From NCBI GenBank assembly GCA_020073565.1, contig JAIQEY010000011.1, forward strand, positions 62,001-126,000: a DNA stretch of 64,000 nt, read 5' to 3'. Shown here piece after piece: positions 735 to 39,599 of this stretch. A program made the translations under genes and the position numbers. The notes beneath the pieces were generated by a model, which did not search any database, was not told where the DNA came from, and saw only the letters and a list, made by a program, of their open reading frames with translations. The stretch comes from Terriglobia bacterium. GTDB lineage: Bacteria; Acidobacteriota; Terriglobia; Terriglobales; Acidobacteriaceae. Positions within the stretch are counted from its first letter, which is position 1; every line of letters begins with the position of its first letter.

Positions 735-798
735 GGTTTGTGGGTTGCATCGGAGATTGATCCCTTACCTGATACGCTTGTAGATCGACAAGAATCGC

Positions 799-1785: not shown

Positions 1786-1871
1786 GGTTGGGCGCACTCC
1801 GCGAGTTCCGATGGCATCCTCGCGATGAGTCGGCAAATGCTTTCGAGAATCGCAACAAGGGACAAAACGAG

Positions 1872-2552
1872 ATGGCGGTGAATGGCAGAGGGAAGCTATC
1901 GGACCTGAAAGCAGTCATCTTTGACTACGGCGAAGTGCTGTGCCTCCCACCTACACCGGAGGATATCGAAGGCAGCGCGCAGATCCTGGGCATCCGTTCG
2001 GATTTGTTCTGGGTTCTGTGGCACCGGCATCGTGATCCGTACGATCGCGGCGATCTTTCGGCCGAAACCTACTGGCGCAGAGTGGCGGCAGACGCTAGCC
2101 GATCCGTTGATGCGGACCAGTCCCGCGAGTTGACCGAGAGAGACCTGGTCATGTGGAGCCGCCTCAATCCTGGTATGCTCGGCTGGCGCGAAAGCCTCTC
2201 GGCGGCGGGGATGAAGACTGCGGTTCTGTCGAACATGAACGTCGAGATGGTTCAGCACGCGCGGCGGAACTTTTCATGGTTGGAGCAACTCAACTGGGCG
2301 ACGTTTTCCGCCGAAGTGAGATTAATCAAGCCGGAGCCCGCGATCTATGAGCACTGTCTGCGGGGTTTAGGGGTTGCGCCCTCGGAGACCCTGTTCATCG
2401 ACGATCGCGAAGTCAACCTCGCGGCGGCTCGGGCCATGGGGATTCATGGGATTCAATTCAAATCGGTTACCCAGCTGAGGAACGATTTGGAGGCAGCGTC
2501 ATTTCCGACCTTGCCTCCGGCCACAACAGCGCGGAATCCCCCATCGATCTGA
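1872..2552 (+). CDS. HAD-superfamily phosphatase (YihX-like)
   Basis: A 226-residue HAD hydrolase. The ATG at 1872 is preferred over the upstream in-frame codon at 1677 because the longer form would overlap the ROK gene by over 100 bases and has no domain there; AGGGA lies about 10 bases before the ATG. Motif I is FDYGEVL, the variant seen in YihX-type sugar-phosphate phosphatases, where the usual second Asp is not in the standard DxD position. Motif II is LSNMN, and motifs III/IV are KPEPAIYEHCLRGLG followed by FIDDRE. The short alpha-helical cap fits class IA. It likely dephosphorylates a sugar phosphate (YihX acts on glucose 1-phosphate), but the substrate is inferred. It is the last gene of the forward cluster and converges on the mannosidase gene 21 bases away. 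Confidence 0.85.
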   Translation: MAVNGRGKLSDLKAVIFDYGEVLCLPPTPEDIEGSAQILGIRSDLFWVLWHRHRDPYDRGDLSAETYWRRVAADASRSVDADQSRELTERDLVMWSRLNPGMLGWRESLSAAGMKTAVLSNMNVEMVQHARRNFSWLEQLNWATFSAEVRLIKPEPAIYEHCLRGLGVAPSETLFIDDREVNLAAARAMGIHGIQFKSVTQLRNDLEAASFPTLPPATTARNPPSI

Positions 2553-2573
2553 GCGTTCCTGTCCCGGTGCTGT

Positions 2574-19487: not shown

Positions 19488-22400
19488 ATGGCGTCTTGTA
19501 AGCCTTGGGCCTTCTTTTTCCTCTCCGCGGTTCTGGTCGTCACAGCTTCTCTTCCCCTTCACGGTCAAAGTACCTACGGCTCGATTACGGGCGCAGTGCT
19601 CGATTCCTCGGGCGCTGCCATCGTCGACGCTAAGGTCACCTTGACCAACGTAGGCACCGCTGAGAAGCACACACAATCCAGCGGCAGCGATGGGTCCTTT
19701 TCCTTCGTCAACCTGTTCCCGGGCCGGTATCGAATCGACGCGGAGAAGCCAGGATTCAAACACTTCGTACAGCAGGTTACGGTCGAAGTGCAGCAGAGCG
19801 CGCGCATTGAAGCCACCCTTCAGGTCGGCGAGGTCAGCCAGACGGTCGAAGTGACGTCGGAAACGCCGCTGCTGCAAGTTGAGACATCTTCGCTCGGCCA
19901 GGTAGTAGAACAGCGCAAGGCCGATGAACTTCCTTTGAACGGACGCAATATTTTTAACCTGATTACGATTTCCCCGGCGGCGGTTGCGCAAGGCGGATCC
20001 GGCGGTTCGCCCGTAACCCAGAACCCGTTCAGTTGGGGCAACTACCAGATCGGGGGGTCGTTCGCCAACCAGGGCGCGCAGTACCTCGATGGCCAGCCGC
20101 TGAATATCGGCTACATCAACCTGCCGATCATCATTCCAACGCAAGACTCCATTGGCGAGTACAAAGTCCAATACAACAACCTGGGCGCCGAATGGGGCAA
20201 GTTTTCCGGCGGCATCGTTAACCTGAGCACCAAGTCCGGCACAAACAGTTGGCACGGTTCCGCCTATGAATTTTTTCGCAACAAGGTGCTTAATGCCAAC
20301 GAATACTTCCACAAGCGGACCCAGTTGCAGGCCAACCCCGTCCAGAAGAACGAGCCGCCACCGTGGAGCCAGAACCAGTATGGGATCCAACTCGGCGGGC
20401 CCGTGATCAAGAATAAGACGTTCTTTTACGTGAGCTGGGAACAGTACCGGCAGCGGACAGGATCGCCGTTCACCACCACCGTTCCAGGGAACGGAATGTT
20501 GAATGGAGATTTCTCGGCGCTGTGTACGGCCGCAGGAGGGACCTTCGACACCAGCGGCCTGTGCAGTGCCGCAGCCGGCCAGGTTTACGACCCGTTCATG
20601 GGTCGCACGCCCTATGGCAAGGACGCAGGCAATCCAAATTGCCCGGGAAACTGTATTCCGGCTGCGGAGTTCAGCAAAGCCGCAACTACTATGTGGAATC
20701 AATACTTCCCGGCTCCTACGGATACGACAAAACTTCTCGACAACTTCGCGAGTGCGGCGGCATCGGGGGGTAACACCAATGAGTTCGTAGTGCGCGGGGA
20801 CCAGAACATTGGGAGTAATACCCGCTTATTCGGAAGATATGCCTATTTCGGACTGACTGATCTCCCCAAGGATCCCTTAGGAACCGGTCTCTGCTTCGAT
20901 CGTTGCGCGGAACTATACCACAGCAAGCTGCTCGCCGTGGGCATCAACCACACTTTTACACCCACAACCATTCTAGACGTGAATCTCGCGGGAAGCCGGT
21001 TCGTCTACGCGCGGGCACCCATCCTTTCAGGTTTTGATCTGACGACTTTGGGTTGGCCAGACACCTACAACAGTCCCGCAGGTTCGATGCGGACTCCTCC
21101 CACCCCGGCGTTCCCGTTCAACAATGATGTAGGGAAGTCGCAGGGCAACAGTGCCATCGGAGATCACAACACGCAGTACAATCTGACACCCGCGCTCACT
21201 ATGATCCGGGGGAAGCATACGATCCAGGTGGGCGGCCAGGTCGAGATCGGATTGGATAACTACTTCCAAACCAATATTGCCAGCGGCGCGTTCGCCTTCG
21301 GCGGAAGCTGGACAACGTCGGCTCCAGGGTCTACCAATGCTAATTTCGCATTCGCCGACTTTCTGCTGGGTCTATCGCAAAACCAGGGGCAGTTCGTAAA
21401 CCAGACCGAAGGCGTCGCGCAGGTTCCAGCGCAAACTGCGGGCAAGCAAGTGTACCGTGCTTTCTACGGCAACGACACCTGGCGTTTGACCAGTAAGCTC
21501 ACCCTGAACCTGGGGCTTCGTTATGAGCTGCAAGGAACCTGGTCCGAACGCTTCAACCGGTTTACTTACTGGGATCCGACCGCTACCAATGCTACCGTCA
21601 CGGGTTGCGGAGGAACTGCAGGCAGCCCGTGCCTGGGCGACGCATTCCTTGTAAAGACAGGCCGGAACTCCAGCCCCAACAATATCCCAATGGATAAGAA
21701 GGCGTTCTCGCCACGCTTTGGGTTTGCGTACGCCCTGAACCAGAAGACCGTAATCCGCGGCGGCTATGGCATCTTCTTCATTCCGAACTACGTCTCGTTT
21801 GGGCTCAACCCGGATAATGACCCTGTGAATCTCGCCAGCACTCCATTCACGGCTACCAAAGATGGGTTCGTAACTCCCTTCAGCACGCTGGACGGGTTCA
21901 ATTGCACGCTGACGGGAACGGCGACCGCCCCCGTTTGCGCTGAGCCTGGACCGTTCGGCGCAGCCGGAATCATTCTGCCGCCCGGGCGCAATCCGCAACC
22001 CAACCTTTCGGCTTTTATCGCGGCGAACGGTTCTCCCAACCTGGCACCCTATTTCAACCCCAAGTTCGGGTATGTGGAGCAATATAACATCAATCTCCAA
22101 CGCCAATTGCCCGCCGGCTTCTTTGTGGATGTAGCCTATGCCGGCTCACACGGTGTGCATCTGGAGCAATACAATACCAACATCAATCAAATCCCAGACT
22201 CGTTCGTTGCCCAGGCAGCTTCGCAGTTCAACCCTGACCCCGGCTGCATTTTGCCGGCGTGCAATCCGAACGCCAACGTCACGATCGCCCAAACAGTCGC
22301 GAATCCCATGGCTGGGACGAGTGCAAATCCCACGATCGGCGCGGCCACTATTACCGCCGGACAGCTTGATCGCCCATACCCGCAATACCTCGGCTTGAAC

Positions 22401-23189
22401 CTGCAGGGGTACGGTTGCTGCAGCAGCACCTACAACTCGCTGCAAGCGACCGTTCAGCGACGGTTCCAGGGTGGTGGAACCCTGCTCGTCGCCTATACCA
22501 ACGCCAAACTACTCACCAACACCGATACGTTGACGAGTTGGTTGGAAAATGGATCGACGGGTGGGGTTGGGCAGGTTCAGGACTGGAACAACCTGAAGGG
22601 AGAGAAATCTCTCTCCTCGCAGGACGTTTCGCAACGACTCGTGATCAGCTACGTGCTCGACCTTCCCTTTGGCCATGGCAAGAGGTTTGCGTCCGGACTA
22701 AGTGGAGCAGTGGACAAACTCGTTTCTGGTTGGGGAATCAACGGCGTGATCACCTTCCAGCGTGGCTTCCCGCTGAAAATCGGCTATGCCGGCTCGACCT
22801 TCCTGGGGCAAGCCAACTTGGGGGTCGCTAACATTCGGCCCAACGTAGTTGCGGGATGTAGCAAAACCGGCCCCCGTACCATTACCGAGTGGTTCAACAC
22901 CGCTTGTTTCGCTGCGCCTCCAGCTTGGGGGTTTGGGACCGAATCGCGCGTCGATCCCACACTTCGGGCGGCCGGAATCAACAACTTTGACTTCGCTTTC
23001 GTCAAGAAGACCTCACTTACCGAAAGGATGAGAATTGAGTTCCTGACGGAATTCTTTAACCTGTTCAATCACCCACAGTTTGGGTTCCCATCCCAAAATC
23101 TCGGCAGTGGCGACTTCGGTACAATCAGCTCGACTGTGCCCACGACCAACCCACGTCTGATTCAGTTTGCCCTGAAGTTGGTTTTCTGA
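19488..23189 (+). CDS. TonB-dependent-receptor-like outer-membrane protein 1 (Oar-like)
   Basis: A 1233-residue outer-membrane protein. A signal peptide (AFFFLSAVLVVTASLPLHG, cut near residue 26) is followed by a carboxypeptidase-regulatory-like beta-sandwich (about 29-110: GSITGAVLDSSGAAIVDAKV, DGSFSFVNLFPGRY), a plug-like region with PLNGRNIFNLITISP, and a very long beta-barrel (about 250-1233) rich in Asn, Gly and aromatics, ending in a terminal Phe (ALKLVF) as for BAM-assembled barrels. The form matches the large Oar-like receptors expanded in Acidobacteria, which are presumed to import glycans or oligosaccharides. No TonB box could be identified with confidence. It is divergent from LacI 1, has its own terminator, and has a homologue at 47577-51116. 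Confidence 0.9.
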   Translation: MASCKPWAFFFLSAVLVVTASLPLHGQSTYGSITGAVLDSSGAAIVDAKVTLTNVGTAEKHTQSSGSDGSFSFVNLFPGRYRIDAEKPGFKHFVQQVTVEVQQSARIEATLQVGEVSQTVEVTSETPLLQVETSSLGQVVEQRKADELPLNGRNIFNLITISPAAVAQGGSGGSPVTQNPFSWGNYQIGGSFANQGAQYLDGQPLNIGYINLPIIIPTQDSIGEYKVQYNNLGAEWGKFSGGIVNLSTKSGTNSWHGSAYEFFRNKVLNANEYFHKRTQLQANPVQKNEPPPWSQNQYGIQLGGPVIKNKTFFYVSWEQYRQRTGSPFTTTVPGNGMLNGDFSALCTAAGGTFDTSGLCSAAAGQVYDPFMGRTPYGKDAGNPNCPGNCIPAAEFSKAATTMWNQYFPAPTDTTKLLDNFASAAASGGNTNEFVVRGDQNIGSNTRLFGRYAYFGLTDLPKDPLGTGLCFDRCAELYHSKLLAVGINHTFTPTTILDVNLAGSRFVYARAPILSGFDLTTLGWPDTYNSPAGSMRTPPTPAFPFNNDVGKSQGNSAIGDHNTQYNLTPALTMIRGKHTIQVGGQVEIGLDNYFQTNIASGAFAFGGSWTTSAPGSTNANFAFADFLLGLSQNQGQFVNQTEGVAQVPAQTAGKQVYRAFYGNDTWRLTSKLTLNLGLRYELQGTWSERFNRFTYWDPTATNATVTGCGGTAGSPCLGDAFLVKTGRNSSPNNIPMDKKAFSPRFGFAYALNQKTVIRGGYGIFFIPNYVSFGLNPDNDPVNLASTPFTATKDGFVTPFSTLDGFNCTLTGTATAPVCAEPGPFGAAGIILPPGRNPQPNLSAFIAANGSPNLAPYFNPKFGYVEQYNINLQRQLPAGFFVDVAYAGSHGVHLEQYNTNINQIPDSFVAQAASQFNPDPGCILPACNPNANVTIAQTVANPMAGTSANPTIGAATITAGQLDRPYPQYLGLNLQGYGCCSSTYNSLQATVQRRFQGGGTLLVAYTNAKLLTNTDTLTSWLENGSTGGVGQVQDWNNLKGEKSLSSQDVSQRLVISYVLDLPFGHGKRFASGLSGAVDKLVSGWGINGVITFQRGFPLKIGYAGSTFLGQANLGVANIRPNVVAGCSKTGPRTITEWFNTACFAAPPAWGFGTESRVDPTLRAAGINNFDFAFVKKTSLTERMRIEFLTEFFNLFNHPQFGFPSQNLGSGDFGTISSTVPTTNPRLIQFALKLVF

Positions 23190-23206
23190 GTCGCGTGATC
23201 GGGACT

Positions 23207-23240
23207 TTTGGGCAGGCTCAGCGAGCCTGCCCAAATTTTT
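23207..23240 (+). terminator. Rho-independent terminator after receptor 1
   Basis: Twelve-base arms TTTGGGCAGGCT (23207-23218) and AGCCTGCCCAAA (23224-23235) around a CAGCG loop, followed by TTTTT. It begins 18 bases after the receptor stop codon and is the strongest intrinsic terminator in the window. Confidence 0.85.
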
Positions 23241-23337
23241 GCTCCCCGTCTCCGCGGCGAGCTTGGGACGTCCCGGTTGGTCCCCTCTCGGAGTTCGCAA
23301 ACCTGCCGGGCATTCCGCAATCCGGCCGGGGGTAAAC

Positions 23338-23367
23338 TTGACAGCGCGCCGGACCCAAGCATAGAAG
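23338..23367 (+). promoter_or_regulatory. Possible promoter of the DUF1080 gene
   Basis: TTGACA at 23338-23343 and TAGAAG at 23362-23367, 18 bases apart, about 50 bases before the ATG at 23418. It lies downstream of the receptor 1 terminator, so a new promoter is needed here. The -10 match is partial. Confidence 0.4.
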
Positions 23368-23417
23368 ATTGGAGACTGAAATCGGTTGCAGAAACAATCT
23401 TCTTGTTCGAGGACCTC

Positions 23418-24398
23418 ATGCCGCACACTCATCGATCGAAGTTCGTCCTGGTGGCTCTGACTCTCACCTTGCTAATTTCTCCGGCCTTTTCCCGCGGTTC
23501 AAGTCTCGGCAAAAATTCATCTGCCGATTCCGTTCAGCCTTTGCTTGGCCGATGGGATCTGACGTTGAAGGCCCCCGATCGGGAATATCCTTCGTGGCTG
23601 GAACTTCGCCAGGAAAACGGCCATTTGACTGCGCAGATGGTTGGACGGTGGGGCAACGCCCGTCCCCTCCCAAAAGCTGAATTTTCGGATGGACAGTTGA
23701 CGCTGGTATCGCCCAAGGAAGAAGAAGGCCTGACGGTCGATATGGTTTTTACGGGGAAGCTGAACGGTAAGACTCTGGAAGGGTCTGTCACCGGGCCAAA
23801 AGACGGGCCTTGGACTTGGTCTGGCGTGATAGCGCCGTCGCTCGACCGAAAAGGCACGCCGCAGTGGGGGAAGCCAGTTTCGTTATTCAATGGGAAGGAT
23901 CTGACCGGTTGGAAAATGAGCGATCCGAACGCCAAAGCAGTTTGGACGGTGGAAAACGGAACGCTGGTGAGTCCGACTCATGGGCCGGAAATCATTAACG
24001 ATCAGAAGTTCGAGGATTTCAAACTGCATATCGAGTTCAATTGCGCCGCCCAGTCCAACAGTGGCGTTTACTTGCGCGGCCGCTACGAAGTGCAAGTTGA
24101 AGACAACTCAACCGAGGAACCGCCGAGCCACCATACGGGTGGCGTCTATGGTTTCATCACGCCGAAGCCGGAAATGCCGCGCAAGCCGGGAGAATGGCAG
24201 ACCTACGACATCACCTTGGTGGGGCGGATGATCACGGTGGTCCAGAACGGGACCACGATTATTGACCAGCAGGAGATTCCGGGCATCACCGGTGGCGCGC
24301 TGGATAGCCACGAGGAACTACCCGGCCCGATCTATCTTCAGGGAAGCGAAGATGGCCACGTGGCCTATCGCAATATTGTTGTTACGCCAGCGAAGTAG
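23418..24398 (+). CDS. Secreted DUF1080 protein (3-keto-disaccharide hydrolase-like)
   Basis: A 326-residue exported protein. The ATG at 23418 is chosen because it has a CGAGGA site just upstream and begins a clear signal peptide (HTHRSKFVLVALTLTLLISPAFS); the frame is open further upstream but with no domain. A small N-terminal beta domain (about 38-130) precedes a C-terminal concanavalin-like DUF1080 domain (about 140-325) with the family marks SLFNGKDLTGW, NSGVYLRGRYEVQVED, GEWQTYDITLVGRMITVVQNG and GPIYLQGSEDGHVAYRNI. DUF1080 proteins include 3-keto-glycoside hydrolases that act after C3 oxidation of a sugar. The next gene, 65 bases on, is an exported Gfo/Idh oxidoreductase that could provide that oxidation. 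Confidence 0.87.
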   Translation: MPHTHRSKFVLVALTLTLLISPAFSRGSSLGKNSSADSVQPLLGRWDLTLKAPDREYPSWLELRQENGHLTAQMVGRWGNARPLPKAEFSDGQLTLVSPKEEEGLTVDMVFTGKLNGKTLEGSVTGPKDGPWTWSGVIAPSLDRKGTPQWGKPVSLFNGKDLTGWKMSDPNAKAVWTVENGTLVSPTHGPEIINDQKFEDFKLHIEFNCAAQSNSGVYLRGRYEVQVEDNSTEEPPSHHTGGVYGFITPKPEMPRKPGEWQTYDITLVGRMITVVQNGTTIIDQQEIPGITGGALDSHEELPGPIYLQGSEDGHVAYRNIVVTPAK

Positions 24399-24463
24399 CG
24401 CTCGGCGGCAGTCCCAGACGTTCAGTCTGATATGACAACAAAAACACACTGCCGGAGGACTTC

Positions 24464-25813
24464 ATGAGCAAGAACATTCTGTCACGCCGGAAATTTCTCG
24501 GAATCAGTGCTGCGGCAGCGGGGGCATCGCTGGCGGCGAAGACCATTCTGCTGGAACCGGAGCCCCTGCTGGCCTCCACGATGGCTGCGAGTGACCGCCT
24601 TCGCTTTGGCATCATTGGGATCGGAATGCAGGGGAATTGGCTGTTGAGCAGCGCCATCGAACTGCCCGGAGTGGAATGCGTCAAGGCGTGCGATCTTTAT
24701 GATGGCCGGCACACGCTGGCGCGGGAGATTACCGCGAAGCCGGACTTGCCCGTCACCCGCCGGTATCACGAACTGCTCGAGGACAAAGAGATCGACTGCC
24801 TGATCGCGGCGGTTCCGGATCACTGGCACAAGCAGATTGTGGTGGACGCGGTTTCAGCCGGCAAGGACATTTACTGCGAGAAGCCGATGTCGCACACCGC
24901 GGCCGAGGGTGCGGAGATGGCGGATGCACAAAAGCGCACGGGGCGCATCGTGCAGATCGGGTCGCAACGGGTCAGTTCGCTGATCTGCAAAAAAGCGAAG
25001 GAAATGGTGGCCCAAGGCATGATAGGCGACCTGATGCTGGTGGAAGGCTGGCTCGGAAGAAACGATCCGACGGGAGCCTGGGAGTATCCTCCTCCATTTG
25101 ATCTTTCTCCGCAAAATCTTGATTGGGACACTTGGCAAGGAACCGTGCCGAAGCGCGCCTTCAGTCCGGAAATTTTCGCGCGCTGGCGTTGCTGGAAAGA
25201 GTACGGGACGGGCGTAGCCGGAGATCTGCTGGTGCATCTGATAAGCGGCATGATGTTTGTGCTGGGCTGGAATGAACCTCCAAGGCGCGCCATGGCCATG
25301 GGTGGCATTCTGCGCTGGAAGGATGGACGCAATATGCCGGACGTGCACGCCAGCCTGTATCAGTATGGCGAGATCCCCGTTTACATGCGGCTCAACTTGG
25401 GCACGGAAATGCCGGAGGTCTACCGCTTCCAGGGCTCGAAGGGAATTCTGGAGATGACCGAGTTCGGCCTGAGCTTCACACCGCAAACGGGCAAGGACTC
25501 AGCGCCGAGTTATTACGACGGCAGTTTTCCGCATGCCATGCGCGAGGCGTATGAGAAGAAGTGGCGCGCCGAGAATACTCCCAAACTCGGAGAAGAACCG
25601 ATGCCGGAAACGGTGACGTTCAAGGCTCCGGACTACGACGATGTAAAACCGCATCTGTGGACATTCTTCGAGGCGGTCCGTTCGCGGAAGCCGGTCGTCG
25701 AAGACGCCCTTTTTGGTCATCACGCGGCGTTGGCTTGCCACATGGCGAACGAATCCTACTTCCGGCAACAGGCAGTCACCTGGGACGCGGCAACCAGAAC
25801 GATCAAGAGTTGA
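24464..25813 (+). CDS. Tat-exported Gfo/Idh/MocA family oxidoreductase
   Basis: A 449-residue NAD(P)-dependent sugar oxidoreductase. It starts with a Tat leader (SRRKFLGISAAAAGASLAA), so it is exported already folded with its cofactor, like glucose-fructose oxidoreductase. The Rossmann loop is FGIIGIGMQGN (about 49-59), the family motif CEKPMSH holds the conserved Glu-Lys-Pro, and the C-terminal alpha/beta domain follows (about 170-440). A GGAGG ribosome-binding site lies 7 bases before the ATG. It follows the secreted DUF1080 gene by 65 bases on the same strand. Together they suggest extracytoplasmic oxidation of a glycoside at C3 and then cleavage. The substrate is unknown. Confidence 0.9.
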   Translation: MSKNILSRRKFLGISAAAAGASLAAKTILLEPEPLLASTMAASDRLRFGIIGIGMQGNWLLSSAIELPGVECVKACDLYDGRHTLAREITAKPDLPVTRRYHELLEDKEIDCLIAAVPDHWHKQIVVDAVSAGKDIYCEKPMSHTAAEGAEMADAQKRTGRIVQIGSQRVSSLICKKAKEMVAQGMIGDLMLVEGWLGRNDPTGAWEYPPPFDLSPQNLDWDTWQGTVPKRAFSPEIFARWRCWKEYGTGVAGDLLVHLISGMMFVLGWNEPPRRAMAMGGILRWKDGRNMPDVHASLYQYGEIPVYMRLNLGTEMPEVYRFQGSKGILEMTEFGLSFTPQTGKDSAPSYYDGSFPHAMREAYEKKWRAENTPKLGEEPMPETVTFKAPDYDDVKPHLWTFFEAVRSRKPVVEDALFGHHAALACHMANESYFRQQAVTWDAATRTIKS

Positions 25814-25826
25814 ATCCAAACCCTGA

Positions 25827-25883
25827 ACCACAGAGGACACAGAGGTATCGGTGTCCTCTGTGCTCCTCTGTGTCCTCTGTGGT
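25827..25883. repeat. Long inverted repeat between convergent genes
   Basis: Perfect 19-base arms, ACCACAGAGGACACAGAGG at 25827-25845 and its reverse complement at 25865-25883, with a loop that itself holds another GTGTCCTCTGTG. The element sits in the 90-base gap between the convergent Gfo/Idh and glpD genes. Repeats built from ACAGAGG/CCTCTGT units are common as dispersed intergenic elements in many soil bacteria. It may also stop transcription in both directions, although there is no T-run. Confidence 0.75.
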
Positions 25884-25903
25884 AAAGACGTCGGACCAGC
25901 GAT

Positions 25904-27469
25904 TCAACTGTGAAGCACGTAATTGGAAGCAACATCGCGAAAGGCAGCCAACTGTTTCGTCCGGGTATCCTCGCCCCAATGCAACTCTGAAGCCATCAGA
26001 TCCGCGACGGCGGGCGCCATTTCAAGTGCTGCCCGCGCATTCAGGAAAAGCGCCCGCGTGCGCCGGGCAAGAATGTCTTCCACGGTGCGGGCCATTTCGT
26101 GCCGCACCGCCCAGACCACTTCTGCCTTCACGTAGGGCAGCGCGGCATGCAGCGGTTCGCTGAGCCTGGCATCAATCTCGATCAGTTTGCGAATTTTGTA
26201 CGCATCCGAACCGTAGACCGCGAGCGAGCCGAATTGTTTCGCCGCATCGTGGAAACCGTGGATGTGCAGGTGGTGCGTCACGCAAGGTTGCTCCGGCAAC
26301 TGCGCGAGCGTGCCCGCCTGATCGACGCAATCCTCGGCCATGTGGCGGTACGTCGTCCACTTCCCACCGCAGATGGTGACCAGGCCGGAACGGTCGATGT
26401 GGATGACGTGATCGCGTGACAGTGCCGCCGTGCTCGCTACCCCCGTGGCGCGCACCAGCGGCCGGATGCCTGCGAATACGCTCAACACATCGTCGCGTGT
26501 AGGCGCTTTCGTCAAGTATTGCGCAGCGGTGGCGAGGATGAAATCGATTTCCTGCTCCATGGCGACGGGCTCGAGGGTCGCGGCTGGGATAGGCGTGTCG
26601 GTGGTTCCCACCAGCGTGTGGCTGTGCCACGGAATCGCGAATAGCACGCGGCCATCGCTGGTATGGGGAACCATGATCGCGCTGTTGCCTTGCAGGAAGC
26701 TCGCATCGAATACCAGGTGAATGCCCTGGCTGGGGACAATCATCGGTGTGGCGGCAGGCTCCGCCTTGAGACGAAGCAGGTCGCTGAAAGCGCCGGTCGC
26801 GTTGACGACGACTGTGGCGGCTGCGCGAAATTCGTCTCCGGTTTCGACGTCACGTGCGCTGACGCCATCTACAAATCCTTGAGCGTCCTTAGTCAGCCCC
26901 GTAACTTCGACATAGTTCAGCAACGTGGCGCCCTGCTCGAACGCCGTGGCCACCATGTGGATGAGCAGACGGGCGTCGTCGAATTGTCCGTCGTAATACA
27001 CAGCGCCGCCGCGCAGGCCTTCGGTCTTCAATGTCGGCAGGTGTTCGAGCGTTTCTTCTCTGGTGAGGATGCGCGAGGTGCCAAAACCGTATTTACCGGC
27101 CAGCAACTGATAGAGTTTGAGGCCCAGGCCGTAGAAGGGAGCCTCCCACCAGTCGTAGTTCGGCACGACGAATGCAAGATCGCGCACCAGGTGGGGCGCG
27201 TTTTGTAGAAGCAGTCCGCGCTCCTTGAGCGCCTCCAAGACCAGGCCGATATTGCCCTGTTCCAGGTAGCGCACGCCGCCGTGTGCCAGCTTGGTGCTGC
27301 GGCTGGAGGTGCCCTTGCCGAAGTCGCTCTGCTCGAGCAGCAGCACATCGTAGCCGCGCGCCGCGGCATCGATCGCGACGCCTACTCCGGTCGCTCCGCC
27401 GCCCACGACAATCATGTCCCAAGCTTTGGGATGCGCGTCGATGCGGCGCCACATTTCGGTTCGATTCAT
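25904..27469 (-). CDS. glpD: Glycerol-3-phosphate dehydrogenase (FAD)
   Basis: A 521-residue flavoprotein that oxidises glycerol 3-phosphate to dihydroxyacetone phosphate at the inner membrane, passing electrons to quinone. The FAD loop VVGGGATGVGVAIDAAARG (about 21-39) is complete, followed by FGKGTSSRSTKLAHGGVRYLE, the GlpD signature, and the C-terminal domain with WAVRHEMARTVEDILARRTR. Length agrees with GlpD (500-570). It is the third gene of the glpK-glpF-glpD cluster, 35 bases after glpF. Confidence 0.93.
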   Translation of the reverse strand: MNRTEMWRRIDAHPKAWDMIVVGGGATGVGVAIDAAARGYDVLLLEQSDFGKGTSSRSTKLAHGGVRYLEQGNIGLVLEALKERGLLLQNAPHLVRDLAFVVPNYDWWEAPFYGLGLKLYQLLAGKYGFGTSRILTREETLEHLPTLKTEGLRGGAVYYDGQFDDARLLIHMVATAFEQGATLLNYVEVTGLTKDAQGFVDGVSARDVETGDEFRAAATVVVNATGAFSDLLRLKAEPAATPMIVPSQGIHLVFDASFLQGNSAIMVPHTSDGRVLFAIPWHSHTLVGTTDTPIPAATLEPVAMEQEIDFILATAAQYLTKAPTRDDVLSVFAGIRPLVRATGVASTAALSRDHVIHIDRSGLVTICGGKWTTYRHMAEDCVDQAGTLAQLPEQPCVTHHLHIHGFHDAAKQFGSLAVYGSDAYKIRKLIEIDARLSEPLHAALPYVKAEVVWAVRHEMARTVEDILARRTRALFLNARAALEMAPAVADLMASELHWGEDTRTKQLAAFRDVASNYVLHS

Positions 27470-27504
27470 AGCGGCACTCTAGGGTGGAGAGCCGTCCCTC
27501 CACG

Positions 27505-28230
27505 TCACTGCATTAGCTTGATAATGCCAGCGCCGATGCCACCGGCGATCAACGGGCCAACGATCGGCACGAACGCATATCCCCAGTCTGAATTCCCCTT
27601 GTCGCTGATGGGCAGGATAGCGTGGGCCATGCGCGGACCAAAGTCGCGAGCGGGGTTCATTGCGTATCCGGTCGGTCCACCCAGACTCAGGCCCAGCGAC
27701 CACACCAGGACTCCCCACAACCACGGGCCGAATCCCGCGGAAAGGCCGGTGGATGACACGGCCCGGCTCCCGAAGCTGAAACCAACCACGATCAAACACG
27801 TGGTGGCAACAATTTCGGTCAGCAAGTTGGCGGGAAGGTTGCGAATGGCCGGCGCGGTACAGAAAATTGCCAGCTTCGCTCCCGCGTCGGGCGTCACTTT
27901 CCAATGGAGCAGGTACGTCATCCAGACCAGGCTGGCGCCGGTGAACGCGCCCAAGATCTGCGCCATCCAGAAAAGGCCGACATTCGACCAGTGTCCCGAC
28001 AGAAGTGCTACCGTGAATGTGATCGCCGGATTAATGTGAGCGCCCGGGCTACCGAAGGCGATGGCCGTAAAGATGCCTGCAACCACTGCCATTCCCCATC
28101 CCGTGGCGATGACGATCCACCCGGAGTTTTCGCCTTTCGATTTCTTCAGAAGAACATTCGCGACGACGCCGTCGCCCAGCAGGATCAGTACTAGCGTGCC
28201 CATGAATTCGCCCAGAAACGGTCCATGCAT
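27505..28230 (-). CDS. glpF: Glycerol uptake facilitator (aquaglyceroporin)
   Basis: A 241-residue MIP-family channel with six membrane helices and two half-helices. Both pore motifs are present: HINPAIT (Asn67) and MNPARDFG (Asn192). The Asp directly after the pore Arg (NPARD) marks a glycerol facilitator as opposed to a strict water channel. It lets glycerol enter by diffusion so that GlpK can trap it. A GAGGAGGT ribosome-binding site precedes the ATG at 28230. It lies between glpK and glpD. Confidence 0.92.
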   Translation of the reverse strand: MHGPFLGEFMGTLVLILLGDGVVANVLLKKSKGENSGWIVIATGWGMAVVAGIFTAIAFGSPGAHINPAITFTVALLSGHWSNVGLFWMAQILGAFTGASLVWMTYLLHWKVTPDAGAKLAIFCTAPAIRNLPANLLTEIVATTCLIVVGFSFGSRAVSSTGLSAGFGPWLWGVLVWSLGLSLGGPTGYAMNPARDFGPRMAHAILPISDKGNSDWGYAFVPIVGPLIAGGIGAGIIKLMQ

Positions 28231-28252
28231 CGTGTGTGGACCTCCTCATTCT

Positions 28253-29758
<1,506 letters not shown>

Positions 29759-30212
29759 CGGATTCGCTTTCCTCCTTCAGGGAGCTAGCGGTTGCCGCCC
29801 GGCGATTGTGATCCGTCCGCGAACTCTGGATTCTATCCCCTTGTCCTAGTGTGCCGACACCTTGTCTCGCAGGCCGTGCCAGACGGACTCTGAATTGCAA
29901 ACTAGCAACGCGGGTGCTGTGCGAGGTGTCCATATGCCGCCCGGGGGGCGGAGAAGGCGGGGTTCCTGGGCATGGTCAATCGACGGCAAGTTATGAGAAT
30001 CACAGGAATTAACCACCATGTTGGGCCGGAAGGTCACCTTCCGGTAATACCCTGCGGAATCTCTCGTAACTACCCGGGTGAGGTACAACTTCCCGATAAA
30101 AGTAACACTCGATGGCACCAAGGTGGAATGTAGCTCGAAACGGCTTCGTGGCATCTTACACATATAGATGTGGGGTTTGCGGCTCCCTGGCAAACCAGAA
30201 TGTGTGGTTCCG
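29759..30212. other. Intergenic region between divergent glpK and patatin genes
   Basis: About 450 bases without a credible gene. It must hold the divergent promoters. A perfect palindrome with 9-base arms, CCGGAAGGT and ACCTTCCGG around a single C, lies at 30026-30044; it could be an operator or a hairpin. No clear -35/-10 pair was recognised on either strand. Short open frames here are overlaps of GC-rich sequence without family similarity. Confidence 0.5.
30026..30044. repeat. Perfect 19-base palindrome upstream of glpK and the patatin gene
   Basis: Arms 30026-30034 (CCGGAAGGT) and 30036-30044 (ACCTTCCGG) with a one-base centre. The symmetry and the position between two divergent genes suggest a protein-binding site, although a cruciform or hairpin is also possible. 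No family of regulator can be named. Confidence 0.5.
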
Positions 30213-31136
30213 ATGAAGAGTCTGGGCAAAGTTATACGGTCTGTGCAAGCCTTCGGCCGCGAACTGTCCCGCAAGTCGAGTGCGGCCGAACCGAAGCGCG
30301 TGCCTGCCATCGGCGTTGCCCTGGGGGGAGGCTTTGCGCGCGGCATCGCGCACATTGGGGTGCTTAAGGTTCTCGAAGAAGAGGGCATTCCGGTGCGCAT
30401 GATTGCCGGCACCAGTGTGGGCGCGCTGATTGGCGCCGCGTATTGCAGCGGACTCACGATCGCGGAACTGGAAGAAGTTGCCCACAAAGTCCGCTTTACT
30501 ACTTTTGCGCGCTGGACGCTCTCGCGCTACGGTTTCGCCAGCAACGACCGCATGGTGACATTCCTCACGCAGATTTTGAAGGTACAGAGATTTGAAGAAT
30601 TGCGCATCCCTCTCGGTGTGACGGCTACGGACTTCAACACCGGAGAAGGAGCGGTGTTCCAATCCGGCTCGATCATCGATCCGGTGCGGGCCAGTTGCGC
30701 CTACCCGGGAATGTTCCTGCCGGTAGAGATTCGCGGGCGCTGGCTGGTGGATGGCATGCTCTCGCACCCTGTGCCGGCGGTTCCCCTGCGGGAAATGGGC
30801 GCGGAGCGCGTGCTGGCCGTGCAATTGAAGGGACAATGGTCGAAGACAACCGCACCGCGTCATCTCTTCGATGTGATTGGACAGTCGTTTGCCATCGCGC
30901 AGGACATGATGAGTACGGTTTGGAGAAGCGCGGTCGATGTTGTCATCGAGCCAGACGTCGCTGGTTTCGACTATGACGACTTCAAACGCGCCGACGAATT
31001 GATGCACGTGGGCGCACAGGCGATGCGCCGGGCGCTGCCCGAAGTACGCAAATGGCTGGAGGCTCCTGTGGAAACACCCGTCGCTGCGACAGCGCCAGCG
31101 ATGGTTGCAAGACCCGCGCCTATGCCAGCCGACTGA
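30213..31136 (+). CDS. Patatin-like phospholipase (RssA/NTE type)
   Basis: A 307-residue lipid acyl hydrolase of the bacterial patatin family. The oxyanion-hole stretch ALGGGFARGIAHIGVL is followed by the nucleophile Ser68 in GTSVG, and the dyad Asp180 in VDGMLSHPVP. There is no signal peptide or membrane segment, so it acts in the cytoplasm or on the inner face of the membrane. The ATG at 30213 is preferred because the conserved domain starts soon after; an in-frame ATG at 30168 would add 15 residues, and neither has a strong ribosome-binding site. It converges with the prolyl oligopeptidase gene 53 bases away. The substrate lipid is unknown. Confidence 0.88.
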   Translation: MKSLGKVIRSVQAFGRELSRKSSAAEPKRVPAIGVALGGGFARGIAHIGVLKVLEEEGIPVRMIAGTSVGALIGAAYCSGLTIAELEEVAHKVRFTTFARWTLSRYGFASNDRMVTFLTQILKVQRFEELRIPLGVTATDFNTGEGAVFQSGSIIDPVRASCAYPGMFLPVEIRGRWLVDGMLSHPVPAVPLREMGAERVLAVQLKGQWSKTTAPRHLFDVIGQSFAIAQDMMSTVWRSAVDVVIEPDVAGFDYDDFKRADELMHVGAQAMRRALPEVRKWLEAPVETPVAATAPAMVARPAPMPAD

Positions 31137-31189
31137 GAGCCACCGCGGATATCATTACCTTCGCTCTGTTGCCGCGCAAACTAACCGGC

Positions 31190-33376
31190 CTATTTCGAGT
31201 TCGCCATTGGAACGTATTGGATTCCCAACTGATCGAACAAGAAACTGAAAACATCGGCATTCTGTTCGATCTCCTCATCGAGTGCGGTGCCCATCCCGTG
31301 GCCGGCACTCGAAGTGGTGCGCAGCAGGATGGGGTGATCGGAACTGCTTGCCGCCTGCAGGCGCGCCGTCATCTTGCGTGATTGCATCGGGTTCACCCGG
31401 TGATCGTTCTCGCCGGTAGGGAGCAGGATCGCAGGATAAGCGGTTCCATCCTTCACATGGTGATAGGGCGAGTATGCGTACAGCGCCTTGAACTGCTCAG
31501 AATCTTTCACGGTGCCGAACTCGGTGACATTGAAAGCCCCGTTCGGATCAAGTTCGACGCGCAGCATATCGTAGATGCCGACGAACGAGACCACGGCTCG
31601 GAACAGGTCAGGGCGCTGGGTGAAAGCGGCGCCCATGAGCAGGCCACCGTTGCTGCCGCCCATGATCGCCAAGTGGGCGGGTGAGGTATATTTGTGCTCG
31701 ATCAGATATTGGGCACAGCCAATAAAGTCGTCAAACACATTTTGCTTGTGGGTCAAATTGCCGGCTCTGTGCCATTCCTCGCCATATTCGCCACCGCCGC
31801 GAAGGTCGGCAGCCACGTAGACTCCGCCCTGGTCCAGCCAGGTGCGCGCGAATGCCCCCAGAAAGAACGGCTTCTCGTTGATGCCGTAGCCGCCGTACCC
31901 GTAGAGCAGCGCGGGATTGCCGGCGTCGAGTTTGATTCCTTTGCGGCGGACGATGTTGACCGGGACACGCGTACCGTCTTTGGAAACAGCGAAGTCGCGC
32001 ACAACTTCTGCGTCGTCGAACTTGACGGGCGAGGTCTCGAATAAAGCAGTGCGCGTAAATTTGCCACTGGCGGCGTCGACGCGATACCACGCGGGTGGGT
32101 CTAGATAGGTGGATGTGTAGAACAGCGCGTCGCCACCGCCGATGGAGACAACCTGACCGATGGCAGAGATCGGAGGCAAAGACGGGGCGGAAAGTGCGTG
32201 GCCCTGGGTGTCAAACAGGCGCACGCGCGAAGGCCCGCCGATGATGTCAATTACGTACAGATGACCGGAGGTGGGTACGAAATTATCAATTGAGGCGCGG
32301 GACGTCTCGTCGGAACCAGAGCCTGAGCTTTGCGGAACGACAACCTTGGCTTCGGAAAGATCCAGATGCGCAAGAGGCAGGCGAAGGATTTGGCCGCGCG
32401 CCGCATTCTTGCGCGAGAGCAGGTAGAGAGCATCATCGGCGCCGACTTTCGCGGAGACAATGCCATCTTCAAAATGTGTGACCTGGGTCCAGTGCCCGGA
32501 TGAGTTCATGAGGTAGTGGGCAAATTGCCCACCATCTCCGTTGGCGACGGCGGCGACCAGCCAGCGGCCGTCGTCGCTTGTCCGAAGCTGGATTTCGGCA
32601 ATACGGGGAAACTCCTTGCCAATCACGTAGGTGTCCTGCCTGGGATCGCCGCCCAGCGTGTGAAAGTAGACTTGCTGATAAAAGTCGGCGTCCTCGGGCG
32701 GGCGTTCGTTGCCTTGTGGATAGCGCGTGTAATAGAAATCGGAACTGTCGGCTTTCCAGGCGATGCTGCCGCCGGCGGTGGCGAAGTTGACACGCGGGAC
32801 AATGTCGGGCAGCTCCTTGCCGGTGGCAACTTCGAAGATGCGGCCGTTGCTATCCTCGGAGCCGTTCTCTGAGAGCGCGGCCGCCACGTACTTACCATCG
32901 AGCGAGGCAACGTAGAAATCGACTGCAGTGGATCCCTTGCTGCTGGCGGCATTGGGATCGAAGATGGTCTTCGCGCTAGCGGGATCGTCAGGCGAGTGCA
33001 GGGCCACCAACGTGGGTTGTTGCTGCGGTGGCTGGTACTTCATGGCAAACAGGGTTCCCCCACGAAACTGCAGACCGTAGTAGCTTGCCGAACTCGCGCT
33101 GATGAGTTGGCGGATTTGCTCCTTGATTGCCGGACGCGCGGGTAGGTGATCAAGATATTCGCGGGTGCGGACGTTCTCGGCAGCGCTCCACTGCTTGGTT
33201 GCGGGATCGTCCCAGTTCTCCAGCCAGCGATAGTCGTCGGTGACTTTGACGCCTTGATACTCATCGGTGACAGGATGCTTGGGCGCGTCGGGTGGCTTGG
33301 GGATGGACGGTCCCTGCGCCTGAGCGGCCGCGGTCAGCAATAGGATCGCGACGAGAGCGCGAAGAGAAATTCGCAT
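31190..33376 (-). CDS. Secreted prolyl oligopeptidase (S9A)
   Basis: A 728-residue serine peptidase that cuts short peptides after proline. A signal peptide (RISLRALVAILLLTAAAQAQ) shows export, as in many soil bacteria. The seven-bladed propeller covers about residues 75-440, the catalytic alpha/beta-hydrolase domain the rest. The triad is Ser575 in MGGSNGGLL, Asp658 in GENDHRV and His693 in SAGHGMG; the preceding RGGGEYGEEWH is also typical. GGAGGG lies just before the ATG. It is a single gene between the patatin and PFOR genes. Confidence 0.93.
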   Translation of the reverse strand: MRISLRALVAILLLTAAAQAQGPSIPKPPDAPKHPVTDEYQGVKVTDDYRWLENWDDPATKQWSAAENVRTREYLDHLPARPAIKEQIRQLISASSASYYGLQFRGGTLFAMKYQPPQQQPTLVALHSPDDPASAKTIFDPNAASSKGSTAVDFYVASLDGKYVAAALSENGSEDSNGRIFEVATGKELPDIVPRVNFATAGGSIAWKADSSDFYYTRYPQGNERPPEDADFYQQVYFHTLGGDPRQDTYVIGKEFPRIAEIQLRTSDDGRWLVAAVANGDGGQFAHYLMNSSGHWTQVTHFEDGIVSAKVGADDALYLLSRKNAARGQILRLPLAHLDLSEAKVVVPQSSGSGSDETSRASIDNFVPTSGHLYVIDIIGGPSRVRLFDTQGHALSAPSLPPISAIGQVVSIGGGDALFYTSTYLDPPAWYRVDAASGKFTRTALFETSPVKFDDAEVVRDFAVSKDGTRVPVNIVRRKGIKLDAGNPALLYGYGGYGINEKPFFLGAFARTWLDQGGVYVAADLRGGGEYGEEWHRAGNLTHKQNVFDDFIGCAQYLIEHKYTSPAHLAIMGGSNGGLLMGAAFTQRPDLFRAVVSFVGIYDMLRVELDPNGAFNVTEFGTVKDSEQFKALYAYSPYHHVKDGTAYPAILLPTGENDHRVNPMQSRKMTARLQAASSSDHPILLRTTSSAGHGMGTALDEEIEQNADVFSFLFDQLGIQYVPMANSK

Positions 33377-38561: not shown

Positions 38562-39599
38562 TTGTCATTGATGCTCGAAGAAATCCGCCAACAACCCGAC
38601 GTACTGGCTCGCATTCTGCAGCAAGAGCGCGGCAAGATTCGCGAACTCGGAGAAGCGCTCCGGAAGCGATCCATCCGGCTGATTATCCTGGTGGCTCGTG
38701 GCAGCTCCGACAACGCTGCTCAGTTTGGCCGATATCTGCTCGAAATCGTCACCGGCATCCCGGTCTCTCTGGCCGCGCCTTCGGTCTACACGCTCTACGG
38801 CGCCAAATTGCGCTTGGATCAAGCCCTGGTTGTCGGCGTGTCCCAGTCCGGTGAAGGCGAAGATATCAATCGCGTGCTGGTAGAGGCGCGGGCGTGCGGC
38901 GCATTTACCATCGGCATCACGAACGAAGCCGGCTCGTCCATGGTCAGCTCGGTTGACGTGCCGCTGCTGATTCACGGCGAGCGTGAGCGCTCCGTCGCTG
39001 CGACCAAGACCCTTACCGGCCAGATGATGATTTTCTATCTGCTGGCCGAAGCGCTGGCGGGCAACTCCGCCATCACGCAGGGTTTTGAACGTGTCCCGGA
39101 ATTTTGTGCGACGACACTCGCCCACGAACCTACGATCCGCGAACTCGTGCAGCGCTACACCTTCATGGAGAACTGCGTCGTTCTCGGACGCGGGCTTCTC
39201 TATGGAAACGCGTTTGAACTCGCGCTCAAGCTGATGGAAACCTGCTACGTCGTGGCCGAACGATTCTCGACCGCAGACTTCTTCCATGGCCCCCTGGCGA
39301 TGGTGGAACGTCATTTTCCAGTGATCCTGTTTGCTGCCCCGGGGGCCATGTTGCCGGGCGTAAAGACCCTGGCCCATCGCCTGAAAGAACTGCGCGCTGA
39401 AACCGTTGCGATCACTTCGGACGCGGAGCTGGCGACCCTCTGCTCGCGCGTTATACCCATGGCTCCGGAGATCTCCGAGTTCCTCGCTCCGATCCCCTAC
39501 ATCATCCCCGGCCAGCTTTTTGCCGCGCTGCTGGCGGAGGCCAAGGGACTCGATCCGGATACACCGCGTTCGCTCTCCAAGGTGACTCGAACGCTATAA
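38562..39599 (+). CDS. SIS-domain sugar-phosphate isomerase/deaminase (GlmS C-terminal/NagB-II-like)
   Basis: A 345-residue protein with two SIS domains (about 35-165 and 195-330), like the isomerase half of glucosamine-6-phosphate synthase but without the glutaminase domain. Phosphosugar-binding residues are visible in ARGSSDNAAQFG, GVSQSGEGEDINR and VAATKTLTGQ; the second domain carries GRGLLYGNAFELALKLMET. Proteins of this size include NagB-II-type glucosamine-6-phosphate deaminases and fructosamine deglycases. A TTG start at 38562 has GAAGGAG eight bases upstream; an ATG nine bases later is possible. It is divergent from PFOR across a 256-base gap and has no co-directional partner. Confidence 0.87.
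   Translation: MSLMLEEIRQQPDVLARILQQERGKIRELGEALRKRSIRLIILVARGSSDNAAQFGRYLLEIVTGIPVSLAAPSVYTLYGAKLRLDQALVVGVSQSGEGEDINRVLVEARACGAFTIGITNEAGSSMVSSVDVPLLIHGERERSVAATKTLTGQMMIFYLLAEALAGNSAITQGFERVPEFCATTLAHEPTIRELVQRYTFMENCVVLGRGLLYGNAFELALKLMETCYVVAERFSTADFFHGPLAMVERHFPVILFAAPGAMLPGVKTLAHRLKELRAETVAITSDAELATLCSRVIPMAPEISEFLAPIPYIIPGQLFAALLAEAKGLDPDTPRSLSKVTRTL

Follow-up and report, generated by a model that had tools for sequence, protein, structure and literature searches.

Oxidative cleavage of glycosides through 3-keto sugars is chemistry already known from Bacteroides and other organisms, and a 3-keto pathway of this kind, encoded by BT2156-BT2160 of Bacteroides thetaiotaomicron and also present in Alistipes (AL), was reportedly described by Nasseri et al. 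in Nature in 2024. The dehydrogenase LacABC is of the FAD/GMC type, DgpA belongs to C-glycoside operons whose eliminase is unrelated, and GFOR, which is exported by the twin-arginine (Tat) route, is a precedent for carrying NAD(P) out of the cytoplasm. The locus analyzed here is a pair of genes for a DUF1080 protein and a Gfo/Idh/MocA oxidoreductase, situated in a 64,000-nucleotide stretch of a Terriglobia bacterium (family Acidobacteriaceae; assembly GCA_020073565.1, contig JAIQEY010000011.1, positions 62,001 to 126,000) that is called the window below. The home genome is a 6.1-Mb draft with a listed completeness of 99.97% and contamination of 6%, and the window lies on its contig C23 (L, G, and C numbers are our labels for loci, genomes, and contigs). 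The reading that we favor, with some reservation, is that the pair forms a two-gene, redox-neutral, periplasmic cassette for the cleavage of 3-keto-glycosides.

Several described enzymes bear on this reading; the PMC-numbered papers are cited throughout from excerpts of their text. BT2157 is a 3-ketotrehalose hydrolase, and Caulobacter CCNA_01705 is a DUF1080 protein with a signal peptide, proposed to be periplasmic and paired with the glycoside 3-dehydrogenase LacABC; the fate of 3-ketogalactose is stated there to be unknown (PMC9007349). In D3dgpA the NAD(H) stays bound, and a 3-oxo sugar, 3-oxo-glucose, receives the hydride of the glycoside in a ping-pong manner (PMC11239390). Agrobacterium AtOGE and AtHYD follow a four-step logic in which AtHYD is a putative sugar phosphate isomerase, the excerpts making no mention of DUF1080 (PMC10628242), and the Bacillus Lgd enzymes form a four-enzyme levoglucosan route (PMC7676230). 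Mutants without BT2157 or BT2158 grew normally on raffinose family oligosaccharides (PMC11501099), so such enzymes can have a masked role, or none, on a particular sugar.

The window locus resembles the BT2156-BT2160 and AL systems in combining a putative Gfo/Idh 3-dehydrogenase with a DUF1080 protein of the kind that acts on 3-keto sugars, and it shares with them the fold matches to 3osd, 8tda, and 8v31 given below. Unlike those systems, it consists of two genes only, with no dedicated eliminase gene adjacent. Its neighbors are a receptor gene and glpD/F/K, and neither an AP_endonuc_2 gene nor a second DUF1080 gene adjoins, so that the locus is not a four-gene 3-keto pathway. Its Gfo/Idh protein also scores far under the BT_2158 cut-off, and its DUF1080 protein carries an extra N-terminal β-barrel. 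A leader-bearing DUF1080 protein paired with a glycoside 3-dehydrogenase is likewise the arrangement in the excerpted account of Caulobacter, but the window dehydrogenase is an NAD-type Gfo/Idh enzyme, unlike LacABC, and some acidobacterial relatives carry both types. The window enzyme belongs to the same superfamily as DgpA and GFOR, which keep their cofactor bound and show ping-pong kinetics, and D3dgpA, as excerpted, offers a precedent for a 3-oxo-sugar acceptor, although DgpA systems lack DUF1080. The sequence of oxidation, elimination, hydration, and reduction that the excerpts give for AtOGE/AtHYD and Lgd is also the logic proposed for the window cassette.

The first-pass annotation had placed the two genes on one strand with a spacing of 65 bases, and its coordinates are borne out by the open reading frame (ORF) listing and by the sequence itself. 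Its family assignments agree with Pfam. PF06439 (DUF1080, 3keto-disac_hyd) matches residues 153–322 of the first protein with an E value of 5.2e-45 (154.2 bits against a gathering cut-off of 26.8), and GFO_IDH_MocA (PF01408) matches residues 46–166 of the second with an E value of 6e-18 (66.1 bits against a cut-off of 24). The leader types were assigned from motif and conservation, and the Sec and Tat motifs reported earlier are indeed present. The DUF1080 leader, MPHTHRSKFVLVALTLTLLISPAFS, is Sec type I by inspection and has no lipobox cysteine. The Gfo/Idh leader, LSRRKFLGISAAAAGASLAA, contains the twin-arginine motif SRRKFLG, in which Ser-7, Arg-8, Arg-9, and Phe-11 are identical across all 20 aligned orthologs; on this conserved motif the protein is predicted to be exported by the Tat route. 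The arrangement is consistent with a single transcript. A promoter of its own, which had also been proposed as possible, was not recovered, as a scan of positions 23150–25960 gave 0 sigma-70-like sites (shuffled sequences average 1.0), promoters of other types remaining possible.

An AlphaFold2 model of the DUF1080 protein was built from 19 long-form sequences and has a mean predicted local distance difference test score of 76. Residues 150–326 of the model match 9fbe (Z 12.3, root mean square deviation (r.m.s.d.) 3.3, 155 aligned) and 8rr2 (Z 11.4, r.m.s.d. 3.2, 158 aligned), whose titles name a 3-keto-glycoside eliminase/hydratase with 2-hydroxy-3-keto-glucal or 3-keto-glucose. The same residues match two hydratases, AL2 of Alistipes (8v31, Z 11.5) and BT2 of B. 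thetaiotaomicron (8tda, Z 11.2), as well as 3osd (BT2157; Z 11.2). A sequence match to the 8rr2-type eliminase/hydratase (2e-7) agrees with the fold match. Trp-150, Asn-214, Arg-220, Glu-224, Gln-226, Glu-234, Tyr-244, Trp-260, and Gln-308 are at least 95% conserved among 19 long and 23 short forms, and the sequence match to 8rr2 covers residues 154–219 only. The N-terminal barrel (residues 36–139), compared as part of the full-length model, gave generic matches only, with Z about 11, to designed barrels, Cap15, and quinohemoprotein amine dehydrogenase. Judged by this model, the long-form DUF1080 protein is a probable 3-keto-glycoside eliminase/hydratase, and its likeness to the solved enzymes makes an extracytoplasmic 3-keto-glycoside system the best reading of the locus. 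The first-pass annotation had arrived at such a system. That part of its proposal stands on the families, the leader motifs, the DUF1080 fold, and the pairing of the genes; the link that it drew to the upstream receptor does not.

For the Gfo/Idh protein, the best sequence matches among solved chains are 8tdf and 8tdh, which are titled dehydrogenases, with DgpA proteins lower among the best 60 of 63 matches. The best NCBIfam model is that of the BT_2158 glycoside 3-dehydrogenase (NF058561). All 20 aligned orthologs keep Asp-77, the residue that ends the second Rossmann strand, as well as Lys-140 of the EKP motif and the Asp-254-x3-His-258 motif. We take Asp-77 to be an NAD-type ribose contact, and the roles of Lys-140 and of Asp-254 and His-258 are presumably those known from the Gfo/Idh superfamily. 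The PF01408 score above its cut-off, together with the EKP lysine and the D-x3-H motif, places the protein in the Gfo/Idh/MocA superfamily, and its sequence makes it a probable glycoside 3-dehydrogenase that keeps NAD(H) bound.

Conservation of the pair was examined first within the family. Among 200 family genomes, relatives of the long DUF1080 protein (E ≤ 1e-20) occur in 38, at 55–100% identity in 31 and at 41–44% in 7. Forty family regions were selected from longer lists and fetched, 20 around a long DUF1080 gene and 20 around a Gfo/Idh ortholog; of the latter, 16 come from genomes that lack the long form, and in the genomes of the other 4 it is on another contig. A six-frame hidden Markov model scan recovered the Gfo/Idh ortholog from 36 of the 40 regions, and in 33 of these 36 a DUF1080 gene lies within 1.6 kb on the same strand. 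In the Gfo/Idh-centered half the partner in 17 of 20 regions is a short DUF1080 gene that lies directly upstream on the same strand, at a distance of no more than 0.2 kb. The short protein has about 220 residues and, in the cases in which BLAST gave an alignment, shares 29–36% identity with the long form. With the long form (16 regions), DUF1080 comes first in 5 and Gfo/Idh first in 9, and in 2 a SIS-domain gene stands between them (L070, L071). A long DUF1080 gene is present in 11 of the 24 genus genomes, every one of which has the Gfo/Idh gene beside it or one SIS gene away. Because the pair is kept despite changes of order and of partner subfamily, it is probably under selection to stay together, which argues for consecutive steps.

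When named genomes were scanned with the Gfo/Idh alignment, 436 relatives emerged, and the best 80 were retained. Phylum groups were assigned by hand from record titles, and some contigs stop close to the gene. A same-strand DUF1080 gene within 2.5 kb is present in 41 of the 80 loci, comprising 40 of 49 from Acidobacteriota, 0 of 28 from Gemmatimonadota, and 1 of 3 others. The two surveys are not independent, as L069 is on the same contig as L119 and further regions from the first survey are found again in the second. Assignment of DUF1080 genes to the long or short class in the named loci was made by score, and 2 of the 23 "short" ones (L121, L132) seem to be long forms that are broken or truncated. 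In L121 and L219 (G207) a long DUF1080 gene beside a Gfo/Idh gene is split over two overlapping frames, as a pseudogene or through a sequencing error. The pairing proposed in the first-pass annotation is thus a real conserved unit across Acidobacteriota, present more often than by chance.

Presence in the same genome extends further than adjacency. Of the 28 Gemmatimonadota genomes with such loci, 16 were tested, and all 16 have DUF1080 elsewhere, compared with 4 of 14 control genomes. Among 120 family genomes, PF06439 (E ≤ 0.001) is present in all 33 with an ortholog above 500 bits and in 48 of the 87 others, where genomes with only partial orthologs below 500 bits (such as G019 and G086) count as lacking the ortholog (Fisher 1.7e-7, relatedness ignored). 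Same-genome presence is thus the rule in the genomes tested, and adjacency is mainly acidobacterial. Another conserved partner of the Gfo/Idh gene was sought in 33 loci, the 28 from Gemmatimonadota and 5 more without an adjacent same-strand DUF1080 gene, and none was found beyond clusters in at most 6 loci, including an AP_endonuc_2 gene in a few; the loci otherwise gave antisense or overlapping ORFs of the Gfo/Idh gene. In L172 (Gemmatimonadota) a DUF1080 gene lies 0.3 kb away on the opposite strand. L177 contains three such Gfo/Idh genes in tandem on one strand (positions 555–4980), with no DUF1080 gene within 2.5 kb.

From the genes, the leader motifs, the predicted DUF1080 fold, the conserved residues, and the conserved pairing, we infer a periplasmic location, a bifunctional DUF1080 protein, and a ping-pong cycle with the following catalytic steps. 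The Gfo/Idh protein would fold with NAD(H) in the cytoplasm, and Tat export would take the cofactor along. It would oxidize C3 of the non-reducing sugar of the glycoside, the DUF1080 protein would act as eliminase/hydratase, and the Gfo/Idh protein would then reduce the 3-keto-hexose to hexose as the second half of its cycle. The net reaction would convert glycoside and water to hexose and aglycone. The periplasm offers a NAD enzyme no pool of NADH. With the hydride returned to the 3-keto-hexose by the Gfo/Idh protein, neither periplasmic NADH nor an external acceptor would be needed, and with the DUF1080 protein as eliminase/hydratase the two genes would be sufficient.

Several observations weigh against this cassette. 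In the family set, three Gfo/Idh-centered regions (L102–L104) contain diverged orthologs, 55–58% identical, without an adjacent same-strand DUF1080 gene, and four long-DUF1080 regions (L072, L079, L081, L085) have no Gfo/Idh ortholog nearby. An adjacent same-strand DUF1080 gene is also missing from 9 of the 49 acidobacterial named loci and from every one of the 28 Gemmatimonadota loci (L139–L195), where the Gfo/Idh orthologs are 67–79% identical. CBM66 and lectin-like folds reach Z values of up to 10.8 against residues 150–326 of the model, a small margin, and the fold alone would therefore not settle the identity of the DUF1080 protein, although the sequence matches agree with it. Some solved DUF1080 enzymes (8tda, 8v31) are titled hydratase only, so a separate eliminase may be needed. 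The Gfo/Idh protein scores 110.4 bits against NF058561, for which the curated cut-off is 750, and it is thus not a member of the BT_2158 equivalog family and works like it at most. Finally, a gene for a FAD-type GMC dehydrogenase, which could be the real oxidant, lies within 8 kb in 9 of the 80 named loci.

This last observation favors a division of labor in which a separate FAD-dependent GMC/Gluconate_2-dh3 enzyme oxidizes the glycoside, a Tat-led AP_endonuc_2 protein eliminates, the DUF1080 protein hydrates, and the Gfo/Idh protein is mainly a reductase or transhydrogenase. A second type of relative contains just these genes: in L097, L098, L105, and L106, a short DUF1080 gene and the Gfo/Idh gene stand beside one or two pairs of GMC and Gluconate_2-dh3 genes and beside genes for Tat-led AP_endonuc_2 proteins, an arrangement of the FAD-type 3-dehydrogenase kind, and the home genome has a GMC and Gluconate_2-dh3 pair at 76.4–78.9 kb of contig C19. 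Yet no GMC gene lies within 8 kb in the window or in 71 of the 80 named loci (some contigs end sooner), and a periplasmic reductase needs a source of hydride, which the ping-pong cycle supplies and a GMC oxidant does not. We regard this division of labor as unlikely, though deserving of attention. The loci from Gemmatimonadota raise a different possibility, that the Gfo/Idh protein performs all four steps at one site as an NAD-dependent glycosidase, with the DUF1080 protein as an accessory hydratase or binding protein. GH4 and GH109 are known single-protein, NAD-dependent glycosidase cycles. That all 28 of these loci have the Gfo/Idh gene without an adjacent same-strand partner fits such an enzyme, and a single-protein cycle of oxidation, elimination, hydration, and reduction is described in the excerpts of PMC11239390. 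The presence of DUF1080 elsewhere in all 16 tested genomes of that phylum argues against it, as does the lack of any GH109 or GH4 match for the Gfo/Idh protein in Pfam, in NCBIfam, or among the best 60 of 63 solved-chain matches, and it seems improbable to us.

It is still harder to credit that the DUF1080 protein is an ordinary glycanase or carbohydrate-binding protein and that the Gfo/Idh protein carries out an unrelated oxidation, for example as a GFOR-like osmoprotectant enzyme. The fold is common to CBM66 and lectins, the single-domain DUF1080 protein THTE_1561 is reported as an endo-xanthanase/lichenase (cited in the excerpts of PMC9007349), and an acidobacterial gfo gene has been interpreted as GFOR (excerpts of PMC7074687); against this stand the persistence of the pair through changes of order and partner and the 3-keto enzymes among the best fold matches. 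The remaining alternative concerns the receptor gene directly upstream on the same strand, which would make the cassette part of a receptor-1/LacI locus that degrades the ligand of the receptor. Some link to a receptor would not be odd, since relatives of the cassette occur near other receptors and LacI genes (each in 7 of the 13 SIS loci described below). A terminator-like hairpin nevertheless separates receptor 1 from the cassette, and synteny in two relatives speaks against the connection, which we consider highly improbable.

Table 1. Features of the cassette and of its surroundings in the window (protein features in residues)
Feature	Position	Strand	Basis or remark
DUF1080 gene, long form, 326 residues	23418..24398	+	ATG at 23418, stop at 24398; ORF listing, Pfam, AlphaFold2 model
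Gfo/Idh/MocA oxidoreductase gene, 449 residues	24464..25813	+	ATG at 24464, stop at 25813; ORF listing, Pfam, alignment
Intergenic gap, 65 bases	24399..24463	+	Shine-Dalgarno-like GGAGGA ahead of Gfo/Idh start; read from sequence
DUF1080 protein, Sec leader	residues ~1–25
DUF1080 protein, 8-strand β-barrel	residues 36–139
DUF1080 protein, 3keto-disac_hyd domain	residues 150–326
TonB-dependent-receptor-like outer-membrane protein ("receptor 1")	19488..23189	+	judged outside the cassette
Intrinsic-terminator-like hairpin, 13 pairs, loop 3, then TTTTT	23207..23235	+	between receptor and DUF1080 genes
Synteny breakpoint against G127	23190..23307	.	relative matches from 23307 onward
glpD-glpF-glpK (glycerol), convergent with the cassette	25904..29758	-	same conserved block in G127; link uncertain

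In G127, the closest relative (same contig as L119), window positions 23307–33116 are conserved at 86–89% nucleotide identity, including the cassette and the glp genes. Directly upstream of its DUF1080 gene are hisF/hisA (named by inspection), which match window positions 60335–59116, and no ortholog of the receptor was found at E ≤ 1e-150 among the 28 of 70 first-look candidates scored. In G208 the receptor, LacI, and TPR/FG-GAP genes are together on one contig, whereas a second contig (L214) carries the cassette beside another LacI gene and another receptor; the 20 kb examined of the 49-kb receptor contig (L210) contain no DUF1080 or Gfo/Idh match. Besides the home genome, receptor orthologs occur in 2 of 24 genus genomes, G208 and G203, at 67–68% identity, and G203, which is 75% complete, has no long DUF1080 gene. 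The different upstream genes in G127 and the separate contigs in G208 suggest that the receptor belongs with the glycan locus on its left. A conserved linkage of the cassette to the adjacent TonB-dependent receptor, as in a polysaccharide utilization locus, finds no support in this synteny. The first-pass annotation was therefore right that the receptor gene directly precedes the cassette, but the link to the ligand of the receptor that it suggested is not supported, in view of the hairpin and of both relatives. The scan for terminator-like sites gave 3, compared with 2.9 in shuffled sequences; the hairpin has a stem of 13 pairs, against 6 and 5 in the others, and the stretch that contains it folds at z -3.2.

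The position of receptor 1 next to the cassette is probably best explained by a rearrangement, and the breakpoint itself may be a misassembly of either draft contig. Window positions 23190–23307 and about 59100 are joined in G127, as would fit an inversion that spans about 36 kb (or a misassembly in one draft). The glycan locus at window positions 2574–23189 encodes GH2/mannosidase, GH5, GH3, UxuA, SDR, KDPG aldolase, and galactonate-dehydratase-like enzymes, along with TPR and FG-GAP/ASPIC proteins, LacI, and the receptor, and parts of it stay together in G208.

Other neighbors of the pair in relatives point to the fate of the sugar. In 13 of the 49 acidobacterial loci the Gfo/Idh ortholog has a gene for an unusual SIS-domain protein no more than 8 kb away (some contigs are cut), and within 8 kb in these 13 there are genes for a ROK kinase (10), a FucP/GluP-like MFS permease (7), LacI (7), and another receptor (7). 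In Occallatibacter savannae (L196) the 21 kb examined contain the pair alone. The SIS gene accompanies 11 of 17 loci with a long DUF1080 gene and 0 of 23 with a short one by score class; two further SIS loci are L125, without a DUF1080 match, and L135, in which a long DUF1080 gene lies 2.7 kb away on the opposite strand. The closest relatives of the SIS family are the isomerase domains of GlmS and the glucosamine-6-phosphate deaminases, but its scores stay far under their cut-offs; it is also weakly related to 6-phospho-3-hexuloisomerase. In an alignment of eight SIS sequences, ALKLKE of GlmS corresponds to RLLWEE, with the Glu and His kept and the first Lys not; the alignment stops short of the C-terminal Lys, whose absence was judged by eye. 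Assuming that the catalytic roles of the Glu, the His, and the two lysines of GlmS apply to this alignment, the SIS protein appears to lack both catalytic lysines. The ROK protein is closest to glucokinases.

In the genome of the window, no ortholog of the MFS permease was found (best 26%), and the SIS ortholog (59%) is on contig C19 and not beside the window cassette. There are only two DUF1080 genes in this genome, the second of which is also on contig C19. Positions 74038–82048 of that contig (L118) encode SIS, Gluconate_2-dh3, GMC oxidoreductase, Gfo/Idh, and ROK kinase proteins on one strand, with two other ORFs between, and this is a probable second 3-keto-sugar cluster without an adjacent DUF1080 gene. 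A further SIS-domain gene, 28% identical to the operon SIS family, lies at window positions 38562–39599 beside glycoamylase-like and GH genes.

Both the SIS-ROK-MFS and the GMC/AP_endonuc_2 contexts support the 3-keto reading, and the SIS-ROK-MFS neighbors suggest a cytoplasmic route for the released sugar. One can imagine an undescribed 3-keto-sugar route, in which the MFS permease would import the 3-keto-hexose, the ROK kinase would make its 6-phosphate, and the SIS protein would isomerize it into central metabolism; we give this only a slim chance, and if true it would tell the fate of the 3-keto sugar after cleavage. That the triad handles a plain hexose or hexosamine is a tamer alternative and equally open. 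A SIS gene with ROK, FucP-like MFS, LacI, and TonB-dependent transporter genes resembles a locus of the NagB-II type for glucosamine and N-acetylglucosamine, and these may possibly be amino-sugar loci. The NCBIfam scores are 43–53 bits for NagB-II (cut-off 430) and 58–184 for NagP (cut-off 625), and the ROK protein is nearest to glucokinases; no NagA-like gene was recognized in the SIS loci, where most neighbors were not domain-searched.

Glycerol genes accompany relatives of the cassette more than once. In L098 (9173–12043) and L106 (7413–10500), glpK is the next gene after Gfo/Idh and shares its strand, and glpD/glpK lie 6–7 kb off in L097. These three loci have neighboring gene clusters in common and are thus possibly one event, the window being another. 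The association hints at a substrate that contains glycerol, perhaps a glycosyl-glycerol, and serves as a lead only. Between the convergent Gfo/Idh and glpD genes, window positions 25823–25883 contain an inverted repeat of CACAGAGGACACAGAGG-like units (by eye), which looks like an intergenic repeat element.

In open-licence literature we found no account of DUF1080 in Acidobacteria (planctomycete work only), no SIS domain linked to 3-keto glycosides, and nothing pertinent on an acidobacterial Gfo in a 3-keto pathway. Within that literature, the compact acidobacterial pair, the barrel-bearing form of DUF1080, and the SIS-ROK-MFS association are new. The cassette extends the oxidative 3-keto cleavage of glycosides from gut Bacteroides to a compact two-gene form in soil Acidobacteriota, and the SIS-ROK-MFS partners are a concrete candidate for the destination of the 3-keto or released sugar. 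If the two purified proteins by themselves give net hydrolysis, the pair would be a redox-neutral glycosidase in minimal form, one that could attack bonds against which ordinary hydrolases fail.

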